This document shows, in pieces, positions 14,785 through 28,436 of a stretch of DNA of 37,710 nt (its first letter is position 1; each line of letters opens with the position of its first letter). The translations under genes and the position numbers were made by a program. Below the pieces are notes generated by a model that ran no database searches, was not told where the DNA came from, and was given only the letters and a program-made list of their open reading frames with translations. Source of the stretch: Chloroflexota bacterium (GTDB taxonomy: Bacteria; Chloroflexota; Anaerolineae; 4572-78); contig DUEH01000012.1 of assembly GCA_011192195.1 (NCBI GenBank), positions 4,345 through 42,054 of the forward strand. The letters are read 5' to 3'.

Positions 14785-15283
14785 CAATATTCCGGCCCTA
14801 AAAACTCTGGAATACGTGGGGATTGACGCCGTCAAAGAGATGGCAAAGCGTCTGGGGATTACCTCGCTAACGAGAGACGACTACGGACTGGCATTGGCGC
14901 TGGGCGCCGGCGAAGTATCGCTGCTGGAAATGACCGGCGCGTACCAAACCCTGGCCAATGTCGGCCAACGAGTTCAGCCTCATGCTATTGCCCAAATCCT
15001 GGATGCTGCCGGCAACGATCTGACACCGCCCCTGGCGCGCCAAGAACAAGTTGTACGCCAGGAACACGCCTATCTGATCACCAATATTCTGCGGCAGAAT
15101 GACCCGCAGGCGTTACCTCAAACCATGACCCTGTCACGTCCAGTTGCATTTAAAACCGGCACGACCAACGATTTCCGCGACAATCTGGTCATCGGCTGTA
15201 CGCCTGATTTGGTAGTTGGCGTTTGGCTTGGCAATGCCGACAACTCATCAATGAAAGGGACAACAGAATTTCCCGGAAGCTGA
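14784..15283 (+). pseudogene. Transpeptidase-domain fragment of a class A penicillin-binding protein
   Basis: VTNIPALKTLEYVGIDAVKEMAKRLGI...ALGAGEVSLLEMTGAYQTLANVG...VAFKTGTTNDFRDNLVIGCTPDLVVGVWLGNADNSSM; lacks the N-terminal glycosyltransferase part and the usual C-term. Confidence 0.85.
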
Positions 15284-15791: not shown

Positions 15792-17150
15792 TTGAAGGTT
15801 ACAACAAAAACACTGGATAATTGTGAAGTATTGATGACCGTTGAAATTGATGATCGTCAGAGAGATGAGATTCTTAAAAAAGCCGCTCGTCGAATTGCCA
15901 GAGAGGTCAGAATTCCCGGTTTTAGGCCGGGGAAAGCGCCTTACAGGTTGATTTTAAATCGTTTTGGCGAAGAGGCCATTCAAGAAGAAGCGATGGATCA
16001 TCTGACGCAAACTATTTACAAAAGGGCCATCAAAGAAGCGGAGGTAGAACCTTACGCTCCGGCTACTATGGAAGAGATTGAATGGAATCCGCTGGTGATG
16101 CAGATCAAGGTTCCCACCGACCCGGTGACTGAGTTGGGAGACTATGGCGCTATGCGTCTGGAAACCGAAGCGGTAGAGGTCAGCGACGACGAGGTAGCGC
16201 GCCAACTGGAGCAGTTGGCAGAACGCTATATCACTTTTGAGCCGGTTGAAAGAGCCGCGCAATGGGGCGACATGGTCTCTATCACCATTTCTGAAAAAGA
16301 TATTGCCTCTGGCGATATGCTGGATGAAGACCGGGAAATGGAAATTACGCTGGCAGAGCGAGACGATGACGCCCCTGAACTTGATCTGCATACGCCCTTG
16401 ACAGGGATGTCTGAAGACGAGGAAAAGACCTTTACGCAGACCTTTAGCGAAACCTATCCGGAGAAAAAATACGCCGGTAAAGAAATTGAATTCCACGTGC
16501 TGGTCACCGCAGTCAAAGCCAAAGAAGAAGTTGAATTGGATGATGACCTGGCCACTATGGTTGGCGATTTTGATACTCTGGATGAGTTGAAAGAAAAACT
16601 CAGAGAAGATATTGCCGAGCAAAAACAGTATGAAATTGATGGCGGATTAATTGAAGAGGCTATGGAGAAATTGGTCGCGGAAGCGAAAACCATCAAATGG
16701 CCTTCTGCTATGGAAGAAGATGAACTTGATAACGCCATCAAAAATCAGGAATTCAAGCTTGAACAGAGCGGCTTGAATTTGAAGGCAATGCTAAGCGCCG
16801 AACAAAAGACGCTTGAAGAGTACCGCGAAGAAACGCGAGAGAAGGTCAGAGAGAATCTCAAGTACAGTCTGGCTTTGAGTAAACTGGTTGAACTGGAAGG
16901 CTTAACCGTAGATGGCGATGAAATTGCTCAGCAAGTGGAATGGATGATAGCAATGTCCGGCGGCAGTCAGGAAGCCAGAGACGCTTACACCTCGTCGGAA
17001 GGCGCGCGCGTAGTTGCCAACAATATCCTGACAGACAAAGCGCGACGGCGATTGCTGGCAATTGTCAAAGGCGAAGCCGAAGAAGAAGCTGATGAGGCCG
17101 AAGCCGAGGAAGCCGTCGTTGAAGAAGAAGCTGTCGTTGAAGAAGAATAA
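15792..17150 (+). CDS. tig: Trigger factor
   Basis: VRIPGFRPGKAPYRLILNRFGEEAIQEEAMDHL; upstream of clpP-clpX; acidic C-terminal tail. Confidence 0.95.
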   Translation: MKVTTKTLDNCEVLMTVEIDDRQRDEILKKAARRIAREVRIPGFRPGKAPYRLILNRFGEEAIQEEAMDHLTQTIYKRAIKEAEVEPYAPATMEEIEWNPLVMQIKVPTDPVTELGDYGAMRLETEAVEVSDDEVARQLEQLAERYITFEPVERAAQWGDMVSITISEKDIASGDMLDEDREMEITLAERDDDAPELDLHTPLTGMSEDEEKTFTQTFSETYPEKKYAGKEIEFHVLVTAVKAKEEVELDDDLATMVGDFDTLDELKEKLREDIAEQKQYEIDGGLIEEAMEKLVAEAKTIKWPSAMEEDELDNAIKNQEFKLEQSGLNLKAMLSAEQKTLEEYREETREKVRENLKYSLALSKLVELEGLTVDGDEIAQQVEWMIAMSGGSQEARDAYTSSEGARVVANNILTDKARRRLLAIVKGEAEEEADEAEAEEAVVEEEAVVEEE

Positions 17151-17152
17151 TC

Positions 17153-17194
17153 AGCGCTTACTCTTCACCATAAAGCGCTTACTCTTCACCATAA
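17153..17194. repeat. 21-bp tandem duplication x2 between tig and clpP
   Basis: AGCGCTTACTCTTCACCATAA repeated exactly twice, followed by AGGAGTT. Confidence 0.9.
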
Positions 17195-17209
17195 AGGAGT
17201 TTTAACATC

Positions 17210-17866
17210 ATGACAATCCCTCTCCCCCAGGCAATGGTTCCTATGGTCATCGAGACCACCGGGCGCAGCGAGCGAGCCTACGATATTTTTTCCTTGCTGC
17301 TCAAAGAGCGTATCATCTTTTTGGGAACCGCCATCAATGATCAGATAGCCAACTTGATTGTGGCTCAATTACTTTATCTCAACCAGCAAGACCCGGAACG
17401 CGACATTTCTATGTACATCAACTCGCCCGGCGGCATTATCTACGCGGGGCTGGCTATCTATGATACTATGCAGTCCATCGCTAACCCCATCAGCACCTTT
17501 GCCGTTGGCGTAACCGCCAGTATGGCTACCGTTCTCCTGGCCGGGGGAACCCCCGGCCAGCGATACGCATTGCCCCACGCCACCGTGCATATGCACCCGG
17601 CCGGCGGCGGCGCTCAGGGTTATACCCCCGATGTTGAAATTCAATTCAAAGAAATGAAACGCCTGCAAGACACCATGCATCACATCATTTCCAGGCATAC
17701 CGGGCAGAGCGTAGAGAAGATTGCCGATGACTTTGAGCGTGACCGCTGGATGGATGCGCTGGCAGCCAAAGAATACGGTCTGGTTGACGAAGTAATGGGC
17801 GCGCCTATTTTGGCCGAAGTAGCCGAAAAAAACAAAGAAGCCGAAACAAGCGCAGAAACGGAATAA
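17210..17866 (+). CDS. clpP: ATP-dependent Clp protease proteolytic subunit
   Basis: RIIFLGTAINDQIANLIVAQLLYL; YINSPGGIIYAGLAIYDTMQ; TASMATVLLAGGTPGQRYALPHATVHMHPAGG. Confidence 0.97.
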   Translation: MTIPLPQAMVPMVIETTGRSERAYDIFSLLLKERIIFLGTAINDQIANLIVAQLLYLNQQDPERDISMYINSPGGIIYAGLAIYDTMQSIANPISTFAVGVTASMATVLLAGGTPGQRYALPHATVHMHPAGGGAQGYTPDVEIQFKEMKRLQDTMHHIISRHTGQSVEKIADDFERDRWMDALAAKEYGLVDEVMGAPILAEVAEKNKEAETSAETE

Positions 17867-17869
17867 ATT

Positions 17870-19174
17870 ATGGTCAACAGGTTTCGAACTGACACCCAAA
17901 CCTGCTCATTTTGCGACCGCAATCAAGACGATGTGAATCGCCTGATTGCGGGGCCTGCTCACGTTTATATTTGCGATGAGTGCGTTTATTTGTGTAAAGA
18001 CATTCTGGAGAAAGAAGAAAAAAAAGCCGCCACAAAGAATAAATCAACGGCGGTTAGACTCCAGCGAAGCCTGTCGCCCAAAGATATTTATGAGCGATTG
18101 AATGAGTGGGTTGTGGGTCAAGATAGAGCCAAGAAAGTATTATCCGTAGCTGTCTACAATCATTACAAACGCATAGATGTCAAAAGCAAAAGCGATGATG
18201 TTGAATTGCAAAAAAGCAATATTTTGCTGGTTGGCCCCACCGGGTGCGGTAAAACCCTATTGGCCCAAACCTTGGCGCGTATTCTGGACGTTCCCTTTTG
18301 CATAGTTGACGCCACCGCGCTTACCGAAGCCGGTTACGTGGGCGAAGATGTAGAAAATATCCTGCTGCGTTTACTGCAAGCGGCGGATTTTAATGTTGAA
18401 TTAGCCCAAAAAGGGATCATCTACATCGATGAAATAGACAAAGTGGCGCGTAAATCCGGCGAAAACCCCTCCATCACCCGCGACGTATCCGGCGAAGGCG
18501 TTCAACAGGCGCTGTTGAAGATCATCGAAGGCACAACAGCCAGCGTACCGCCTCACCTGGGACGCAAACATCCCGGTCAGGAATATATTGAAGTAGATAC
18601 CTCTAACGTCCTCTTTGTCTGCGGCGGCTCCTTTGATGATGTTGACAGCATTGTCTCGCAACGCATAGGCGCTAGAGGGCAATTTGGCTTTCCACAGCAG
18701 TCCGGGAAAACGCTCACCCTGCAAAAACGCATCTCCAGCGACGAACTTCTGCGCCAGCTTATACCCGATGACCTGATTGAATATGGCCTGCTCCCCGAAT
18801 TTGTGGGCCGCTTGCCCGTACTTGTCACCGCCGACGCGCTGGACAAAGCTGCGCTGATGAGCATTCTGGTTGAACCGAAAAACGCCCTGGTCAAACAATT
18901 TCAGCGCCTTTTCAAACTGGATGACGTGGAACTGGCCTTCACCACCGAAGCGCTGGACGCCGCAGCGGAAGCGGCTTACAAGCAAAAAACCGGCGCGCGC
19001 GGCTTGCGCACCATCATCGAAGACACCTTGCTGGACGTTATGTACGAAATCCCCTCCCGGAAAGAGATCAAGAAATGCGTCATTACCAGAGCGGTTATCC
19101 TTGGCGACAGCGAACCTGAGTTGTATGACGGCTACGGGCGAGCGCTCAACGCGGAACTTGATATGGCCGCTTGA
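17870..19174 (+). CDS. clpX: ATP-dependent Clp protease ATP-binding subunit ClpX
   Basis: [27 protein letters not shown] zinc finger; [22 protein letters not shown]; Walker [10 protein letters not shown]. Confidence 0.98.
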
Positions 19175-19854: not shown

Positions 19855-19879
19855 TTAGTTGCTTTTTCGAGAAGAATCT

Positions 19880-22800
19880 ATGCCAAACTGGCGTCGTTTT
19901 CTATTCAATTCTACTGTCATCTGGGTAATCCTCCTGTCCTTGGTCAAGAGCGCTGTGCCGGCGGCAAAGGCTCAAGAAAATCAACCGTCCATCAACCCCC
20001 AGGTGGAAGCCGTTTTTGAGCAATTATCTACGGACGAGAAGATAGGCCAGCTTTTCATTGTCACCTTTGAGGGCAATGATTTGAGCGATGACAGCCGGAT
20101 AACGCGCCTTGTCCGGGACTATCGCGTTGGCGGCGTCTGGTTGCAGGCAAGCAATAAACTGACTGTGAATGAGGACGTCAGCAGTCAGGATGCGCTGCCG
20201 GGTACGCTCGATATGGTCAATCGCTTGCAGGGGGGCATTTACCACCCTTCGCAATTGCAATTGGGCGTCATTACAAGCGCCGTATCGCTGACAATTACAG
20301 AGAGCCTGTCGCCTACCGATACACTGAGCCGTACGGTTGCGCTGACCCAACCCTTAATGGGGGGCGCTACGCCCATCCCTCTTTTTATTGCGGTTGACCA
20401 CGAAGGCAACGGCTATCCCCACACCCTCCTTTCGCCGGAACTGAGCGATGCGCCCAGCGGTATGGTCTTGGGCGCAACCTGGAATCCGGCTTACGCCGAG
20501 CAAGTGGGTGATACGGTTGGGCGCGAATTAGCTGCGCTGGGCATCAATATGCTCTTTGGTCCGGTGCTGGACGTGGTAGATAATCCCAGACCGGAACTGA
20601 TTGGCGGTATTGGCGTGCGATCCTTTGGCGGAGACCCCTACTGGGTCGGCTCGATGGGCCGCGCTTATATCAGAGGCGCCCACACCGGCAGTAACAATCA
20701 GCTTTTGACCATTGCCAAGCATTTCCCCGGCGCAGGGAGTATTGATCGCCAACTGAATCAGGATGTACCAACTATTCAGAAACTATTGGGACAATTGCAA
20801 TTGGTGGAACTGGCTCCCTTTTTTGCCGTAACTTCAGTTGGCGTCACCGCGCCGGAAGAAACCACCGATGGCTTGATGACCGCTCACATTCGCTACCGGG
20901 GGCTGCAAGGCAACATCAGGGATTTAACCAAACCAATCAGCCTGGACCCGCAAAACCTGCCCGCTATTTTATCCGACCTGTCGCCCTGGCGAGACGCCGG
21001 CGGCTTGATTATCAGCGGACCCCTCGGCGCGCCGGCGGTTGTAAAAACCTACAAAGCCGACGAAGGCGACTTCCCTGCCCGTCGAATTGCGCTGGATGCC
21101 TTTTTAGCCGGCAGCGATGTCTTGCTTCTGTCAAACTTTGGCCCTTCTGACGATAGCAGCGAAGAAACGCAATTTGATCACATTGTCACTGCTATTGAGT
21201 TCTTCAAAGATAAATACGAAAGCGATCCTGCTTTTCAGCAACTGGTAGATACCTCTGTTCGGCGCATCTTGCAGGCCAAACTGAAATTGTATAACGATTT
21301 TGCCCCGGAAAAGGTCATCAAATCCAGAGACAATCTGACTGCGCTATCAGGCAATGCCGACAGCTTGAGCGATGTAGTGCGCGATGGGATAACGCTTGTT
21401 TACCCTGACCCGGCTGAATTGGCCGACCGCATCCCCAGTCCCCCGCTTGGAGATGAAATAATCCTGATCTTCACCGATGACCGGCAAGCGAAGCTGTGTC
21501 CTGACTGCGAAGATTTCTACCTGATAGACCCGGCATCGCTGGAAAAGATGATGCTGAATTTGTACGGCCCTGACGCCAGCGATCAGATTGCGCCGGAGCG
21601 CATTGCCAGCTTTACCTTCACTGAACTGGCCGACGCTTTGAACGATAATCCGGATACCATTGTGCGTAACGCCCAGCTATCCGCTTTGCTGCGGCGAGCG
21701 GGCTGGATAATTTTTGCTATGCTGGACATAGACACTGTCAACTACCCCGGTTCCGGCGTGGTAAAACAATTCCTGGATGCGGGATCGCTTGATTTGCGGG
21801 ACAAGAAGGTGATTGTGTTGGCTTTTGATGCGCCGTACTATCTGGACAATACAGAGGTGAGTATTTTAACGGCCTACTACGGCGTGTATAACAAAACCCA
21901 AAAGCACATCGAAGCTGCGGTCAGATTGCTTTTTAAGGAATTTAGCGCTGCGGGACACTCGCCGGTGAATATTGACGCAGTTGAATACAAAATCCCTGAT
22001 GTGCTGGAACCGGACCCTAATCAGGTCATTACCCTGGAATACTTCAAAGAGACGGCAGACGCCGCAGAAGATGAGACGACGCCAACGCCAGAACCTGTCA
22101 TTGAAGGAACGCCTGAAGCTGTGGCTATAGAGATTGAGGTAGGTGATCGCCTGGTTATACGTACCGGCGTGATTGTGGACAAAAACGGAAATCCGGTTCC
22201 GGATAACACGCTGGTTTCATTCAATAGAGCCTATCCCCAAGAGAGTTTGGAACTGGCGCCCATCATTGTGCCAACACTTAATGGCGTGGCGCAAACTGTG
22301 ATTGACGTTGACCGGGAGGGGATGCTGGAAATTACGGCAGAGAGCGGCGAAGCTACTGAATCAGGCAAAATCATCATCGAAGGCTCCACCATCACCATCG
22401 AAACGCCCACGGCAACCAGCACGCCTACATCTACGGCAACCAGCACGCCCACGGCAACCAGCACGCCTACCAACACGCCTACCCCCACGCCTACAACAAC
22501 CAATACACCTACACCCACGTCTACCCCCACATCTACGCCCACGCCACCGCCGCCTCAGCCGCCTGTCTTGCGTTCGCCGGATTTACTTTTTTCCGTGTTG
22601 GTTTTAATTGCTTTAGGATTTATTGTCTTTGTCACAATGACATCGCTAAAAATGCCGCTGGAAGCGCGTTTGTGGCCGGCGTTAATGGTGGCAGCCTTTG
22701 GTCTGGCCGGCTATGTACTCTACGGCTTCTTTGCCGTACAATTGGCTGAAATGAGCATGGTGGGCGATTGGGTGAGACAGAATACCAAAACGCACTGGCT

Positions 22801-22906
22801 GACGCCTTTGGTCACATTGCTCTTTGCTTTGCTGGGTGTTGGTGGCTTGAAACTTTTTGAAATGATCAGCCGGGCGCGTAATAGCGCTGAAAACAACGAC
22901 GAATGA
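19880..22906 (+). CDS. Glycoside hydrolase family 3 (NagZ-like) protein, probably non-catalytic, with TP-rich linker and C-terminal TM helices
   Basis: RELAALGINMLFGPVLDVVDNPRPELIGGIGVRSFGGDPYWVGSMGRAYIRGAH...IAKHFPGAGSID; linker TPTATSTPTSTATSTPT; start ATG 19880 preferred. Confidence 0.85.
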   Translation: MPNWRRFLFNSTVIWVILLSLVKSAVPAAKAQENQPSINPQVEAVFEQLSTDEKIGQLFIVTFEGNDLSDDSRITRLVRDYRVGGVWLQASNKLTVNEDVSSQDALPGTLDMVNRLQGGIYHPSQLQLGVITSAVSLTITESLSPTDTLSRTVALTQPLMGGATPIPLFIAVDHEGNGYPHTLLSPELSDAPSGMVLGATWNPAYAEQVGDTVGRELAALGINMLFGPVLDVVDNPRPELIGGIGVRSFGGDPYWVGSMGRAYIRGAHTGSNNQLLTIAKHFPGAGSIDRQLNQDVPTIQKLLGQLQLVELAPFFAVTSVGVTAPEETTDGLMTAHIRYRGLQGNIRDLTKPISLDPQNLPAILSDLSPWRDAGGLIISGPLGAPAVVKTYKADEGDFPARRIALDAFLAGSDVLLLSNFGPSDDSSEETQFDHIVTAIEFFKDKYESDPAFQQLVDTSVRRILQAKLKLYNDFAPEKVIKSRDNLTALSGNADSLSDVVRDGITLVYPDPAELADRIPSPPLGDEIILIFTDDRQAKLCPDCEDFYLIDPASLEKMMLNLYGPDASDQIAPERIASFTFTELADALNDNPDTIVRNAQLSALLRRAGWIIFAMLDIDTVNYPGSGVVKQFLDAGSLDLRDKKVIVLAFDAPYYLDNTEVSILTAYYGVYNKTQKHIEAAVRLLFKEFSAAGHSPVNIDAVEYKIPDVLEPDPNQVITLEYFKETADAAEDETTPTPEPVIEGTPEAVAIEIEVGDRLVIRTGVIVDKNGNPVPDNTLVSFNRAYPQESLELAPIIVPTLNGVAQTVIDVDREGMLEITAESGEATESGKIIIEGSTITIETPTATSTPTSTATSTPTATSTPTNTPTPTPTTTNTPTPTSTPTSTPTPPPPQPPVLRSPDLLFSVLVLIALGFIVFVTMTSLKMPLEARLWPALMVAAFGLAGYVLYGFFAVQLAEMSMVGDWVRQNTKTHWLTPLVTLLFALLGVGGLKLFEMISRARNSAENNDE

Positions 22907-22986: not shown

Positions 22987-24003
22987 TTAGGGTTGGGGGA
23001 GTGTGGGGGCAAAGAAGGTAACAATCATCGCCAGAGCCAACAGCAGCCCCACAACTGCCAGGAGCGTTTTGTTTTCCAGCAGCGCGCTTTGTACGTTATG
23101 AAGTTGCAGCCACCAATCACTATTTGCGCCCATTAAGGCAAAACTTCGGCCTTTCAACAGTTCTTCGTTGAAGTCTGCGGCGGTAGCGGGGCGTTCATCG
23201 GGGTGCATTGCCAGCGCGTGTAAAATGGCCTGTTCTGTTTTTGAACTGACAGAGGGATTGAACTCTCTGAGCGATAGTTGCTTGTTTGGATACAGAAAGC
23301 GTTCTTTGGCTTCTGTGGGTGGGCGCAGCGCTAATAGGTGGAACAGTGTGGCGCCCAAAGAATAAATATCAGAACGAGCGTCTGTGTGGCCTGTATCACC
23401 GCCGTATTGCTCCAGCGGCGTGTATTGAACCGTCCCTTTTCCTTGCAGCACGGTAACTGTTCGGTCATCGTCCGGGGCCATTACTTTTACCAAGCCAAAA
23501 TCAACTAACTTCAGCGGCCCGCTTTCCGTTAATTTGATATTGGCCGGTTTGATGTCTCGGTGTAAAATGGGCGGGTCTTGACTGTGTAAGTAAATGAGCG
23601 CGTCAAGTATCTGTTTTGCCCACTCAAGCACTTTCTTTTCCGTGATGTGTACACCTTTTACTTTGGCTTCTTCAATCTTTTCTCGCAGATCGCGCCCGGA
23701 TACAAAGTCCATCACCAGATAATCGCGGCCATTGTAAAGGAAAAAGTCAGATACTTTGGGCAGATTAGGATGATCCAGACGGGCCAGCACATTGGCTTCG
23801 CGGTGAAATTGAGCCTGAATCTGCTCTTGATAGCTTTTTGACGCGCCAATATCAGTAATTACTTCTTTGATGGCGCATAGACGGCCTGACAGTCTCAGGT
23901 CTTCAGCTTTATAAATGGACCCTTGACCGCCTTTGGCGACCAGTTCTACAATATGGTATCTGGACCACAAGGTGGTTCCAGGGGATAGCGGCTCAGACAT
24001 CAA
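22987..24003 (-). CDS. Serine/threonine protein kinase with one C-terminal TM helix
   Basis: YHIVELVAKGGQGSIYKAED; HRDIKPANIKL; DFGLVK; terminal TM LLAVVGLLLALAMIVTFFA. Confidence 0.95.
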   Translation of the reverse strand: MMSEPLSPGTTLWSRYHIVELVAKGGQGSIYKAEDLRLSGRLCAIKEVITDIGASKSYQEQIQAQFHREANVLARLDHPNLPKVSDFFLYNGRDYLVMDFVSGRDLREKIEEAKVKGVHITEKKVLEWAKQILDALIYLHSQDPPILHRDIKPANIKLTESGPLKLVDFGLVKVMAPDDDRTVTVLQGKGTVQYTPLEQYGGDTGHTDARSDIYSLGATLFHLLALRPPTEAKERFLYPNKQLSLREFNPSVSSKTEQAILHALAMHPDERPATAADFNEELLKGRSFALMGANSDWWLQLHNVQSALLENKTLLAVVGLLLALAMIVTFFAPTLPQP

Positions 24004-24165: not shown

Positions 24166-24816
24166 ATGAATGAGGAATTTGCTATATTGCTGGTTCAGGA
24201 AGGGGATAGCCCCAGAAATATCTGGGAATTGGATAAGCAAGAGATCATCATTGGGCGCGGCGATGACTGCGATGTGGTTGTTAATGACCGTCAATCGTCT
24301 CGGCATCACGCAAAAATAGTCCGCGAAGGCGAACGCTATAAGGCGCTGGATTTGAACAGCAAAAACGGCACTTTCCTGAATGGTACACCAATAAGCGCCA
24401 AACCGCAATACCTGAGCGATGGCGACCAGATAGGGATTGCCTTGAGCAGCCGCCTGGTTTTTGTGGATGCCGGGGCTACCGCGCCCTTGTTTGCTGAACA
24501 TAAATTTAAAGCGGAAATCAGGATAGATCAGGCTGCCAAACGGGTTTGGGTGACGGGGAAAGAATTATCGCCGCCCCTGTCATTAGCGCAATACAGGCTT
24601 CTGGAATTGCTCTTTTCCAGACGGGGAGGCGTGGTGAGCCGGGATGAGGTTGTGTCTCAGGTCTGGTCAGATGAAGAGGCCGAAGGCGTATCTGAGCAGG
24701 CCATAGACGCTCTGGCCCGCCGTCTGCGCGAGCGCATTGCAGAAGTTGACCCTGATACGCAGTATGTACTCACCGTGCGCGGACATGGATTCAGACTGGA
24801 GAATTTTGCCAAGTAG
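24166..24816 (+). CDS. FHA domain plus C-terminal winged-helix (OmpR/trans_reg_C type) DNA-binding protein
   Basis: IIGRGDDCDVVVNDRQSSRHHAKI...LDLNSKNGTFLNG; LSLAQYRLLELLFSRRGGVVSRDEVVSQVW...TVRGHGFRLE. Confidence 0.92.
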   Translation: MNEEFAILLVQEGDSPRNIWELDKQEIIIGRGDDCDVVVNDRQSSRHHAKIVREGERYKALDLNSKNGTFLNGTPISAKPQYLSDGDQIGIALSSRLVFVDAGATAPLFAEHKFKAEIRIDQAAKRVWVTGKELSPPLSLAQYRLLELLFSRRGGVVSRDEVVSQVWSDEEAEGVSEQAIDALARRLRERIAEVDPDTQYVLTVRGHGFRLENFAK

Positions 24817-24893: not shown

Positions 24894-27404
24894 TTTGCTC
24901 ACCTCTACTTCGGTTAAGGTAAAACTCACGCGCGCCGGGTTTCCGGCGACATCCAAAATATCCAGGCGCTTTCCATCTTCCGGCGAGTATAGCCCCACAA
25001 CCAGTGGATGCGCGCCAGACGGCGTATCCGGCGAAAGGTGCAGAGCGTGCGCGTCGGGGATAATTTGGCCGGGGCGCCAATCATTGGTGGGATAACGCGC
25101 GCAAACCGGCAGGCTATCGGCTTGCGCGTATTTGTGTTCAGAATCCAGATGGACAAAGGTTTTGTAGCTTTCTTCCATCGGAACCAGCGATTGCCAGTAG
25201 AGCGTGAGAACAATTCGCCCGCCGGGATGGGCGCGCCGCGCATCCAGATCATACCCCGCCAGCTTGATTTTTCCCCCAAAATTGACATCACTTGAAAATT
25301 CCCACTGTGAGTTACGGCTGAACGCGGCGGGCGAGGCGCTTTCATTAAAAGCGTTTTCCAGTTCAACCTGATTCAGCGTTTCCAAATTGAGCGTCGTTGG
25401 CTGTCGCTGGTGGATGGTCAGGGTGTTGCCGTTAGCCTGCTCAATGCGCCCCACCGCAGTGTAGCTGGTTGCCAGCAGGTCTTTCGGCAACGGAACCGGG
25501 TCAATCACGGTAGAAGCTGCGTAGAAGAATTCCGAGCCGGGGTCGCAGGCGCGGGGAGCGTGGCGCGTGTACCAACTTGTCACATCCTCTTCCTCATTGC
25601 TGTCGTAGTCGCCCGCCAGCGCGCCGTCGGCAATCAGCGCTCCCACCGATTTCCAGCCCACGCGATGCGCAAAGCCAAAAAAGCCGGTCTCCGGGCGGTC
25701 ATCGAAGGGTGTATAGAAAATAGCCGGATTACTGGCGGGGTAACTGGGCAGAAATTCTACGTCGTGGCGCGCAAAGGCGTTCCACAGGTAAAGCGTAGAC
25801 AGCGCCAGCAGCAGCGCGTTAGCAGCCAACCGCGCGGCAGGGTTAAGGCGAATTTCCCCCGCCGACCAACCCGCCAGCAGCGCCCAGCCGGGTAGTACCG
25901 TGTAAATGTGCGTCAGCGGCGTGGCAACGGCAAAATTATAGCCCATAAACGGCGCGGCGAACCAGAGCAGGGCGGCTTGCTGGGGCAGACTAAGAGCCGG
26001 CGACAGGAAGACGGCCAGCAGAACCAGCCCAAAAGGAATTGCCGTCCAATTTCCCAGCGCATCCGGCCAAAGCGCCAACCCGATGATAATTACTGCCGCT
26101 GCCCCCCCCGCCCAGCGACGCCCCCATTTCACCTTCCACAGCGACCAGCCCACAAAGCCCGCCAGCAGCAGTCCCGCTATCAAAACGTAATAAAACGAAC
26201 TGTAGAAGCTGTTGAAGTGCAAAAAGTCCAGCAGGTTATTTTTCAGCAGCCCCTCGCCGATGCGGTCTTCCAGATAACTTCCGGTGCGGCCAATTTGCGG
26301 ATCAAGAAAGTAGGGCAGGTAAAAGAGAAACGCGCTGCCCAGAAAAGCGGTTAACCAAAGGATGAAGGATGAAGGGTGAAATCGAAAGGTGGAAGGGTGA
26401 AGGATGAAAGATGAAGGATGAAGGGCTTGTCCTGAGCCTGTCGAAGGGATGAAGGATGAAAATCCCGTTCCAAAACTCTGTTTGGGAACAAGACCTTCCG
26501 CCTTCATCTTTCTGCCCTCATCCTTCACAAAAAGCCAGCCGATAGCTGGAATGACCAGAATAGCGTCGTAGTGAGCCAGCAGGCCAACGCCCAGAAAGAG
26601 GCCGGAAACAAAGGCCCAGCGTCCTTCTTTGTTTTGTCGCCATTGCCAGACTGCCCACAGGGAAAGGGCGCTCATCCACAAGACAATGGTCTGGTACTGC
26701 ACAATTCGGCTAAAACCGAGCGTAAAGCCGCTGGCGGCCAAAATTGCCGCGCTGTAGAGGGCGGCGCGTTTGGAGAACCAGCCTTCGGCCAGCAAGTAGA
26801 GGGTGAGAATGCCGCCCATTCCGGCGATGGCAAAGGGCAGTCGCGCCGCGCCTTCGGTGATGGGGCTGCTTAAGCGCCACACGGCGGCGGGAAGCAGGAC
26901 TTCGCCGGGGCCTTTGCCGCGTAGAAAGAGAGTGTTGTCGTGCCCGTCAATGATTTCGGCGGCGGTGATCATCGCCAAAGATTCATCGCCTTGAAATTCG
27001 CTATAATTGAGATAAGTAAATCGAAGGAGAAAAGCCAGTAGAAAGACAATCGCGATAAACCCGGTTTGTGGTTTCAGGTTTCGGGTTTCGGGTTTTACAA
27101 CCTGAAACCTGAAACCCGAAACCACAAACCCCAAACCCGAAACCACATTCAACAGCGCCAGCAGATGCCACAGGCGCAGCGGACCGGGCAGGTAGTGCAG
27201 CGCCAGCGCGCCCAGCGACGTAATCGCGTAGCTCAGCCCCAGCGAGAGAACGATGAGGGGGAGGATTCGCTGTTTTGGCAGGAGCCGGTTAGCCCAGCCC
27301 CAGCCGGGCAGAACCAGCGCCAGTAAAATTGCGCCCGGCAGTTGCAGGGGAGGGATGAGCAGGCTGAAATTGGCTATGAGTAAAAGGGTGAGATAGACGG
27401 TCAT
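24891..27404 (-). CDS. Large integral membrane glycosyltransferase-like protein (PMT/ArnT-like, GT39/GT83-type fold)
   Basis: LLRFTYLNYSEFQGDESLAMITAAEIIDGHDNTLFLRGKGPGEVLLPAAVWRL..., many TM helices, soluble C-terminal domain; two in-frame repeat insertions. Confidence 0.7.
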   Translation of the reverse strand: MTVYLTLLLIANFSLLIPPLQLPGAILLALVLPGWGWANRLLPKQRILPLIVLSLGLSYAITSLGALALHYLPGPLRLWHLLALLNVVSGLGFVVSGFRFQVVKPETRNLKPQTGFIAIVFLLAFLLRFTYLNYSEFQGDESLAMITAAEIIDGHDNTLFLRGKGPGEVLLPAAVWRLSSPITEGAARLPFAIAGMGGILTLYLLAEGWFSKRAALYSAAILAASGFTLGFSRIVQYQTIVLWMSALSLWAVWQWRQNKEGRWAFVSGLFLGVGLLAHYDAILVIPAIGWLFVKDEGRKMKAEGLVPKQSFGTGFSSFIPSTGSGQALHPSSFILHPSTFRFHPSSFILWLTAFLGSAFLFYLPYFLDPQIGRTGSYLEDRIGEGLLKNNLLDFLHFNSFYSSFYYVLIAGLLLAGFVGWSLWKVKWGRRWAGGAAAVIIIGLALWPDALGNWTAIPFGLVLLAVFLSPALSLPQQAALLWFAAPFMGYNFAVATPLTHIYTVLPGWALLAGWSAGEIRLNPAARLAANALLLALSTLYLWNAFARHDVEFLPSYPASNPAIFYTPFDDRPETGFFGFAHRVGWKSVGALIADGALAGDYDSNEEEDVTSWYTRHAPRACDPGSEFFYAASTVIDPVPLPKDLLATSYTAVGRIEQANGNTLTIHQRQPTTLNLETLNQVELENAFNESASPAAFSRNSQWEFSSDVNFGGKIKLAGYDLDARRAHPGGRIVLTLYWQSLVPMEESYKTFVHLDSEHKYAQADSLPVCARYPTNDWRPGQIIPDAHALHLSPDTPSGAHPLVVGLYSPEDGKRLDILDVAGNPARVSFTLTEVEVSK
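26358..26530. repeat. Intragenic nested heptad hairpin, family GATGAAG, containing two other repeat types
   Basis: GGATGAAGGATGAAGGGTGAA..., GGGCTTGTCCTGAGCCTGTCGAAGGG, CCCGTTCCAAAACTCTGTTTGGGAACAAG, then CTTCATC/CCTCATCCTTCAC. Confidence 0.9.
27063..27146. repeat. Intragenic heptad hairpin, family GGTTTCG
   Basis: GGTTTGT GGTTTCA GGTTTCG GGTTTCG GGTTTTA CAACCTG AAACCTG AAACCCG AAACCAC AAACCCC AAACCCG AAACCAC. Confidence 0.92.
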
Positions 27405-27526: not shown

Positions 27527-27990
27527 TTTTCCCGGCGCAGGCGTTCTGCCTGACGCTCTTTGGCCGCATCCCAACGACGGCGTTGGGTGTCGTTTTCCAG
27601 AATCAGGCCGGGGACTTTTGTGGCGCGGCCATTGTCGTCCAGGGCTACGTAGACCAAGCGAGCGGAGTTGGTGTGCGTTTGTTCGCCGGTGATGGGGTTT
27701 TCGGCGGTTACGCGCACGCCTACCTCCATTGATGTGTTCCCCACGTAGTGAATACTGGCTTTTAGCGTAAGCAGATTACCCACGTGTACCGGCGAATGGA
27801 AGGTCATTGAGTCAATGGCAATGGTGACAGCGGGGCGCTGCGCGTGGCGCATAGCGCATAAGCCGCCGGCTTCGTCAACCAGTTTCATAATGATACCGCC
27901 GTGAACGTTTCCCAACGGGTTAGCGTGTTGCGGTAACATAAATTGGTGCAAACTTACTTCTGAATCGGCTACCCGTTTTTTGTCAGGCAT
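27520..27990 (-). CDS. Acyl-CoA thioesterase (hotdog fold, YciA/BFIT type)
   Basis: HQFMLPQHANPLGNVHGGIIMKLVDEAGGLCAMRHAQRPAVTIAIDSMTFHSPVHVGNLL. Confidence 0.93.
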   Translation of the reverse strand: MPDKKRVADSEVSLHQFMLPQHANPLGNVHGGIIMKLVDEAGGLCAMRHAQRPAVTIAIDSMTFHSPVHVGNLLTLKASIHYVGNTSMEVGVRVTAENPITGEQTHTNSARLVYVALDDNGRATKVPGLILENDTQRRRWDAAKERQAERLRREKE

Positions 27991-28008
27991 TTTAACATTC
28001 CTTGCAAG

Positions 28009-28072
28009 TTGGAGATTAGGAAATCAGGAGATTTTTAATCCCAATCTCTAATCTTTAAGTTCCAATCTCTAT
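28009..28072. repeat. Octad-type hairpin, family GGAGATTA
   Basis: TTGGAGATTAGGAAATCAGGAGATTTTTAATCCCAATCTCTAATCTTTAAGTTCCAATCTCTA. Confidence 0.75.
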
Positions 28073-28290
28073 TTTACGCGACGCGCGTGAAAACAATACC
28101 CGTGCCAGTTATGAACCACTATTGACGCGCGTTTGCGACCATCTTCCAGTTCTACGGTAACGTGTTCTATCTTCACCGGCTCACCATAGCGTAATTCAAC
28201 CTGATTGGCGGCGCTTAGAGCATCAGGCGCTTCTACTGTGTGTTCGGCAACTACAGAGCCTTGACTTTTGACGGTGATGAGGTATTGCAT
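28069..28290 (-). CDS. Conserved-looking small protein (73 aa)
   Basis: MQYLITVKSQGSVVAEHTVEAPDALSAANQVELRYGEPVKIEHVTVELEDGRK...; track ORF start (28413) lies in repeat DNA, so start reassigned to 28290. Confidence 0.6.
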   Translation of the reverse strand: MQYLITVKSQGSVVAEHTVEAPDALSAANQVELRYGEPVKIEHVTVELEDGRKRASIVVHNWHGYCFHARRVK

Positions 28291-28436
28291 AAGGCGAATG
28301 GGCGAATGGGCGAATGGGCGAATAGCGAATAGGCGAATGGGCGAATGGGCGAATAGCGAATAGGCGAATAGCGAATGGACAAACTCGCAGCTCGTAAATT
28401 CGCAAATTCGCAAATTCGCTCATTCGCTCATTCGCG
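28291..28436. repeat. Heptad/octad hairpin, family GGGCGAAT/AGCGAAT
   Basis: GGCGAATGGGCGAATGGGCGAATGGGCGAATAGCGAATAGG... ; 3' arm AAATTCGC x3 TCATTCGC x2; contains RNase H stop. Confidence 0.92.

Follow-up and report, generated by a model that had tools for sequence, protein, structure and literature searches.

In the stretch of 37,710 nucleotides analysed here (hereafter, the window), we found a gene encoding a large protein related to family 3 glycoside hydrolases (GH3), which is followed by a convergent gene for a Ser/Thr protein kinase and then by a divergent gene for a regulator with an FHA domain (Table 1). The open reading frame of the GH3-like gene counts 1015 codons when opened at a TTG at 19859, the better start being the ATG at 19880, and it stops at 22906. 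Directly upstream lie tig, clpP and clpX (15792-19174, forward strand). Among the loci read, this position is also occupied by clpP-clpX, together with tig where the contig reaches that far, in three relatives belonging to the window's own family and nowhere else, so that these genes were rejected as part of the module. Further upstream (14816-15283, forward strand), a stand-alone ORF of 155 aa carries a partial penicillin-binding transpeptidase domain (PF00905, E=4e-10).

Table 1. Features of the GH3-like gene and of its two downstream neighbours, in window coordinates.
Feature	Position	Strand	Basis or remark
GH3-like gene (predicted pseudoenzyme)	19880..22906	+	1008 aa from ATG; sequence, PF00933 and hhalign
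N-terminal signal/anchor hydrophobic segment (residues 15-33 of the 1015-codon ORF)	19901..19957	+	hydropathy
GH3 barrel, PF00933 (residues 140-464 counted from the ATG)	20297..21271	+	E=1.3e-37; hhalign
NagZ dyad loop KHFPGAGSIDRQLNQDVP	20717..20770	+	BsNagZ Asp232/His234 replaced by Gln298/Asn300; Lys287/His288 kept
Nucleophile segment GLIISGPLGAPAV	21002..21040	+	Asp column is Gly387 (codon 21017-21019)
Second domain, alpha/beta-sandwich-type (GH3 C-terminal-like)	21416..21994	+	hhalign to NagZ C-terminal part; boundaries approximate
Ig-like (Big_1-type) domain	22037..22399	+	weak match
Thr/Pro-rich linker	22403..22573	+	sequence
Three C-terminal hydrophobic (TM) segments, then a short charged tail	22583..22867	+	hydropathy
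Ser/Thr protein kinase, HRD/DFG intact, one C-terminal TM (about 23008-23064), no ectodomain	22987..24003	-	convergent with the GH3-like gene
FHA + winged-helix (Trans_reg_C) regulator	24166..24816	+	divergent from the kinase gene

The GH3 scaffold assigned to this protein in the preliminary description is clearly kept. First, the protein reached 130.3 bits against PF00933 (E=1.3e-37), far above the gathering cut-off of 27. Second, a profile-profile alignment (hhalign) between ten members of its clade and four NagZ-type sequences gave a probability of 100% and an E-value of 3e-47, with the KHFPG and nucleophile motifs in register and free of gaps, and it ran on through the second domain. Third, the best PDB sequence matches were GH3 β-N-acetylglucosaminidases, namely 4zm6 (5e-24), 6k5j and 3bmx. 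Against the NCBIfam model for β-N-acetylhexosaminidases (NF003740), the protein scored 55.9 bits, under the cut-off of 207. AlphaFold models built from two-sequence alignments only had a pLDDT of 33 for the extracellular part and of 29 for the barrel alone. In the second domain, which gives a weak PF01915 match in the genome's own paralog, Cys547 and Cys550 are invariant across the compared groups. The Thr/Pro-rich linker described earlier is also there, followed by three hydrophobic segments (residues 909-927, 942-960 and 985-1003) which, with the N-terminal signal/anchor, replace the two TM segments counted previously. These segments back the placing of the protein at the cell surface, also proposed in that description, and support the prediction that it is exported and membrane-anchored.

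In NagZ-type enzymes, the catalytic dyad consists of the Asp and His of DSH in the motif KHFPGHGX4DSH (PMC4974736). In the window protein, these two columns are occupied by Gln298 and Asn300 (KHFPGAGSIDRQLNQ), so that the dyad is lost, though at residues other than the His of PGHG. Indeed, the sequence KHFPGAG previously pointed out at 20717-20737 is encoded in frame, but the His that it lacks is not the dyad residue it had been taken for. This position varies among relatives, with Ala in family f1, Phe in family f3 and His in 15 of the 16 proteins of group B (the group of the paralog copy), and we rejected it as a catalytic residue. The nucleophile segment, expected to read (V/I)(S/T)D(A/S)L in the NagZ type, is GLIISGPLGAPAV in the window protein, encoded in frame and free of Asp and Glu, and the column of the nucleophile (Asp318 of BsNagZ, Asp268 of RmNag) holds Gly387. 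Thus, the absence of the nucleophile from its segment was correctly noticed, and the claim that both catalytic elements are gone stands even if the acid/base had been read off the wrong histidine. In comparison with the β-glucosidase type of GH3, the Asp nucleophile of the barrel is likewise replaced by Gly387, and the α/β-sandwich domain, from which that type takes its Glu acid/base, is present in the window protein.

The pocket of RmNag (4zm6) is formed by Asp80, Arg149, Lys179, His192, Met229, Asp268 and Met297, and replacing either the dyad residue His192 or the nucleophile Asp268 by Ala abolishes hydrolysis (PMC4680927). Asp180, Arg254 and Lys287 of the window protein match the -1 contacts Asp80, Arg149 and Lys179, and His288, which adjoins Lys287, is kept as well. 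In the dyad loop, D296-R297 is conserved and Asp302 stands where the family near-invariably has Glu; this D-R pair is near-invariant in, and specific to, the GH3-like family. Together, the alignments support well the loss of the catalytic residues and, since both the Asp-His dyad and the Asp nucleophile are absent, we predict that the protein is unable to cleave glycosides in the manner of GH3 enzymes.

To place these losses in the family, we surveyed 249 genomes of the class, with membership set at E<=1e-60, and found the GH3-like family in 171 of them; in a phylum-wide draw, it was present in 21 of the 25 genomes of the class (own genome included) and in 1 of the 176 outside it. A total of 158 members were aligned and placed in a single tree with FastTree. 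None of the 158 has a D[ST]H motif, and the absence of the NagZ dyad is therefore a trait of the family and not peculiar to the window gene. The nucleophile column holds Asp in 125 members, Ala in 12, Gly in 8, Glu in 5, Pro in 3, Gln in 3 and Asn in 2, so that the Asp is missing in 33. On the 158-member tree, parsimony requires at least 11 state changes at this column, and a maximum-likelihood tree of 72 rows at least seven. The nucleophile Asp is missing from every protein in the clade of the window protein (17 members in families f1 and f3, with a support of 100; A12 G4 P1 at this column), and Asn occupies the dyad His column in all 17. As read from these sequences, the loss of the nucleophile is thus clade-specific and recurrent, while that of the dyad is family-wide. 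The full set of four -1 contact residues is found in 18/18 members of group B, in 21 of the 107 other nucleophile-bearing members and in 4/17 members of the window's clade; in the sister genus g3, the sugar-contact Asp, Arg and Lys are all replaced.

Two positions past the dyad His column, 138/158 members have a conserved Glu, including 120 of the 125 that bear the nucleophile. It may act as an alternative acid/base in Asp-bearing members, but this is only a suggestion because none of the 16 members that lack the nucleophile outside the window's clade has lost this Glu. This loop Glu speaks for the view that the window protein is still an enzyme, using either unconventional residues, such as D296-R297 and D302 in the loop, or another type of chemistry: Asp302 would be a conservative substitute for it, and the pockets of the paralog copies are apparently intact in 18/18. 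Such activity nevertheless appears improbable to us, because the nucleophile segment of the window protein has no acidic residue and its clade only Ala, Gly or Pro at the nucleophile column, because the loop Glu is kept in 2/17 members of the clade and lost or changed in 15/17, and because Ala at the equivalent Asp abolished the activity of RmNag (PMC4680927). Since most members outside the clade keep both the nucleophile Asp and the near-invariant loop Glu, catalytic activity may be the ancestral state, and the module may formerly have worked with an enzyme. The tendency of these two residues to be lost together was rejected as a proof of ancestral catalysis and is only a weak argument for it, given that the Glu stays in those 16 members.

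Then, we estimated dN/dS for pairs of family members, of which few were compared and several were near saturation at synonymous sites. For whole genes, the ratio was 0.08-0.20 in five nucleophile-less pairs of the window's clade and 0.10 in one nucleophile-less pair outside it, which indicates that the protein is maintained by selection despite lacking the nucleophile. The barrel/whole-gene ratio was about 0.8-1.0 in the five clade pairs and about 0.3-0.75 in six Asp-bearing pairs; in the former, the barrel evolves with roughly the same freedom as the protein at large, whereas it is the tighter part in the latter. A decaying pseudogene, or an assembly or sequencing artefact of a metagenome-assembled genome, could be imagined from the fragmentary state of the genome (301 contigs, 74% complete). 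We nonetheless consider this extremely improbable and rejected both sequencing error and pseudogene: the open frames are long throughout the clade and shortened only where contigs end, the low dN/dS speaks against decay, and an assembly error is excluded because independent genomes, 17 in two families, show the same loss. With its fold kept, its catalytic residues gone and purifying selection acting on it, the window protein has the marks of a GH3 pseudoenzyme, its inactivity being predicted.

We found the strongest functional clue, which the preliminary description had overlooked, in the conserved kinase and FHA neighbours. Downstream sequence of 3.5 kb or more was available for 94 members, among which a kinase gene was found in 66, an FHA gene in 61 and both in 59, these counts depending on score cut-offs and contig ends, and the orientation of the trio was the same at 57 of the 59 complete loci. 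One or both partners were not next door at 35 of the 94 loci, including one (L086) in the window's own family. The adjacent kinases keep HRD and DFG in 96/97 cases and have a single TM after the kinase domain in 93/97, mostly with less than 30 residues beyond it; the window's kinase has six. In families f6, f37 and f100, the GH3-like gene is kept, mostly with its nucleophile, and no kinase/FHA pair adjoins it, so that these lineages offer a natural control for the proposed module.

The genome (G000) carries a second GH3-like copy (contig C236, locus L034), which keeps the nucleophile Asp and the sugar-contact residues. This paralog and the other members of group B resemble the window gene in belonging to the same GH3-like family, in having the same kinase/FHA trio in the same orientation and in lacking the dyad. 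They differ from it in that the nucleophile Asp, the loop Glu (column 236) and the four -1 contacts are invariant in 18/18. In the kinase tree and in the FHA tree alike, module copy A is set apart from copy B, a single change per tree being needed inside the order, so that the trio was duplicated and diverged as a unit. The module duplication took place in or before the window's order.

Because relatives across the class adjoin the same kinase and regulator genes, the GH3-like protein may be a sensor or docking protein, and we infer a signalling role for it. We favour, with a probability of about one half, a pseudoenzyme ectodomain that serves as sensor or co-receptor for the tail-anchored kinase, with the FHA regulator as output. 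The ectodomain would sense or dock a ligand in the envelope, be it a glycan, a muropeptide or a protein, and its membrane segments would hand its state on to the kinase. By phosphorylating the FHA regulator, or else one of the partners of this regulator, the kinase would then change transcription. After the duplication, the C236 copy would have kept its nucleophile and sugar contacts while the window's copy drifted to a non-catalytic role. Binding of glycan or peptidoglycan, proposed in the preliminary description, is possible for such a protein. The kinase/FHA pair could also control the GH3-like gene, rather than take input from its product.

A less probable but still credible reading is that of a non-catalytic protein which binds or scaffolds the envelope or cell wall, with the kinase and FHA genes only controlling its expression or sharing an envelope pathway. 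The Big_1-like domain, the Thr/Pro linker and the membrane anchor would suit a surface scaffold, the sugar-contact Asp, Arg and Lys are kept in the window protein, and some lineages hold the GH3-like gene without adjacent kinase and FHA genes. However, the clade at large does not conserve these contacts (4/17), and a kinase devoid of its own ectodomain, in a trio passed on and duplicated as a whole, points to physical coupling more than to co-regulation.

We then compared the window protein and its module with known systems. The window protein is like NagZ-type GH3 proteins (BsNagZ/YbbD 3bmx, RmNag 4zm6 and LpqI) in its barrel, as judged by profile, its KHFPG motif and its export, and it shares with them a BsNagZ-like α/β second domain and the Asp/Arg/Lys of the -1 contacts. 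Unlike them, it has neither the DSH dyad (Q..N) nor the Asp nucleophile (G), and it adds an Ig-like domain, a Thr/Pro linker, three C-terminal TMs and conserved kinase/FHA neighbours.

Klotho is an animal protein of the GH1 type. Together with β-Klotho, which has a pseudoglycosidase region (PMC12665127), it offers a likeness in architecture only, that is, a membrane-tethered dead glycosidase partnering a signalling kinase. In the Klotho system, however, the partner is a receptor tyrosine kinase that has an ectodomain itself, and binding is demonstrated, whereas the role of the window protein is deduced from gene context. There is no homology to GH1 Klotho either, as Pfam assigned GH3 and matched no other glycosidase family. 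It is conceivable, though we think it rather unlikely, that the module is a counterpart of Klotho by convergence, in which a dead GH3 protein would be the ligand-binding co-receptor of a tail-anchored kinase with an FHA-winged-helix output, class-wide and repeatedly stripped of catalysis. In bacteria, the pairing of a Ser/Thr kinase with an FHA-containing DNA-binding regulator recalls PknH-EmbR of Mycobacterium tuberculosis, where the regulator is of the OmpR type (PMC4601284). However, the sensor domain is part of PknH itself, EmbR combines a BTA domain with an FHA domain at its C-terminus, and that system has no GH3-like partner. Klotho would be the nearest mechanistic analogy and PknH-EmbR the nearest bacterial signalling analogy, neither implying family membership. 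Among open-licence papers, we found nothing relevant on this module or on GH3 pseudoenzymes; such work may exist elsewhere.

If the favoured reading is true, it would account for how extracellular signals reach Ser/Thr kinases that have no ectodomain. It would also provide, within one module, a natural series for the change from enzyme to receptor, made of a copy with an intact pocket, half-decayed relatives and a fully dead copy. As they pass the Pfam GH3 cut-off, genes of this family would be counted as sugar-degrading enzymes in genome descriptions. In the genome studied here, 2 GH3, 12 kinase and 11 FHA genes exceeded the cut-off, and both GH3 genes adjoin a kinase gene and an FHA gene. 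These two are the only GH3 genes found and both belong to the family; the NagZ dyad is missing from both, and in one of them the nucleophile is missing too, so that no canonical GH3 NagZ was seen in this 74% complete genome. A third kinase/FHA pair lies on contig C179, with the FHA gene at 27022-27192 (reverse strand) and the kinase gene at 27960-28352 (forward strand), divergent as in the other pairs; the kinase open frame is only 148 aa long, and this may be another module cut by the contig end.
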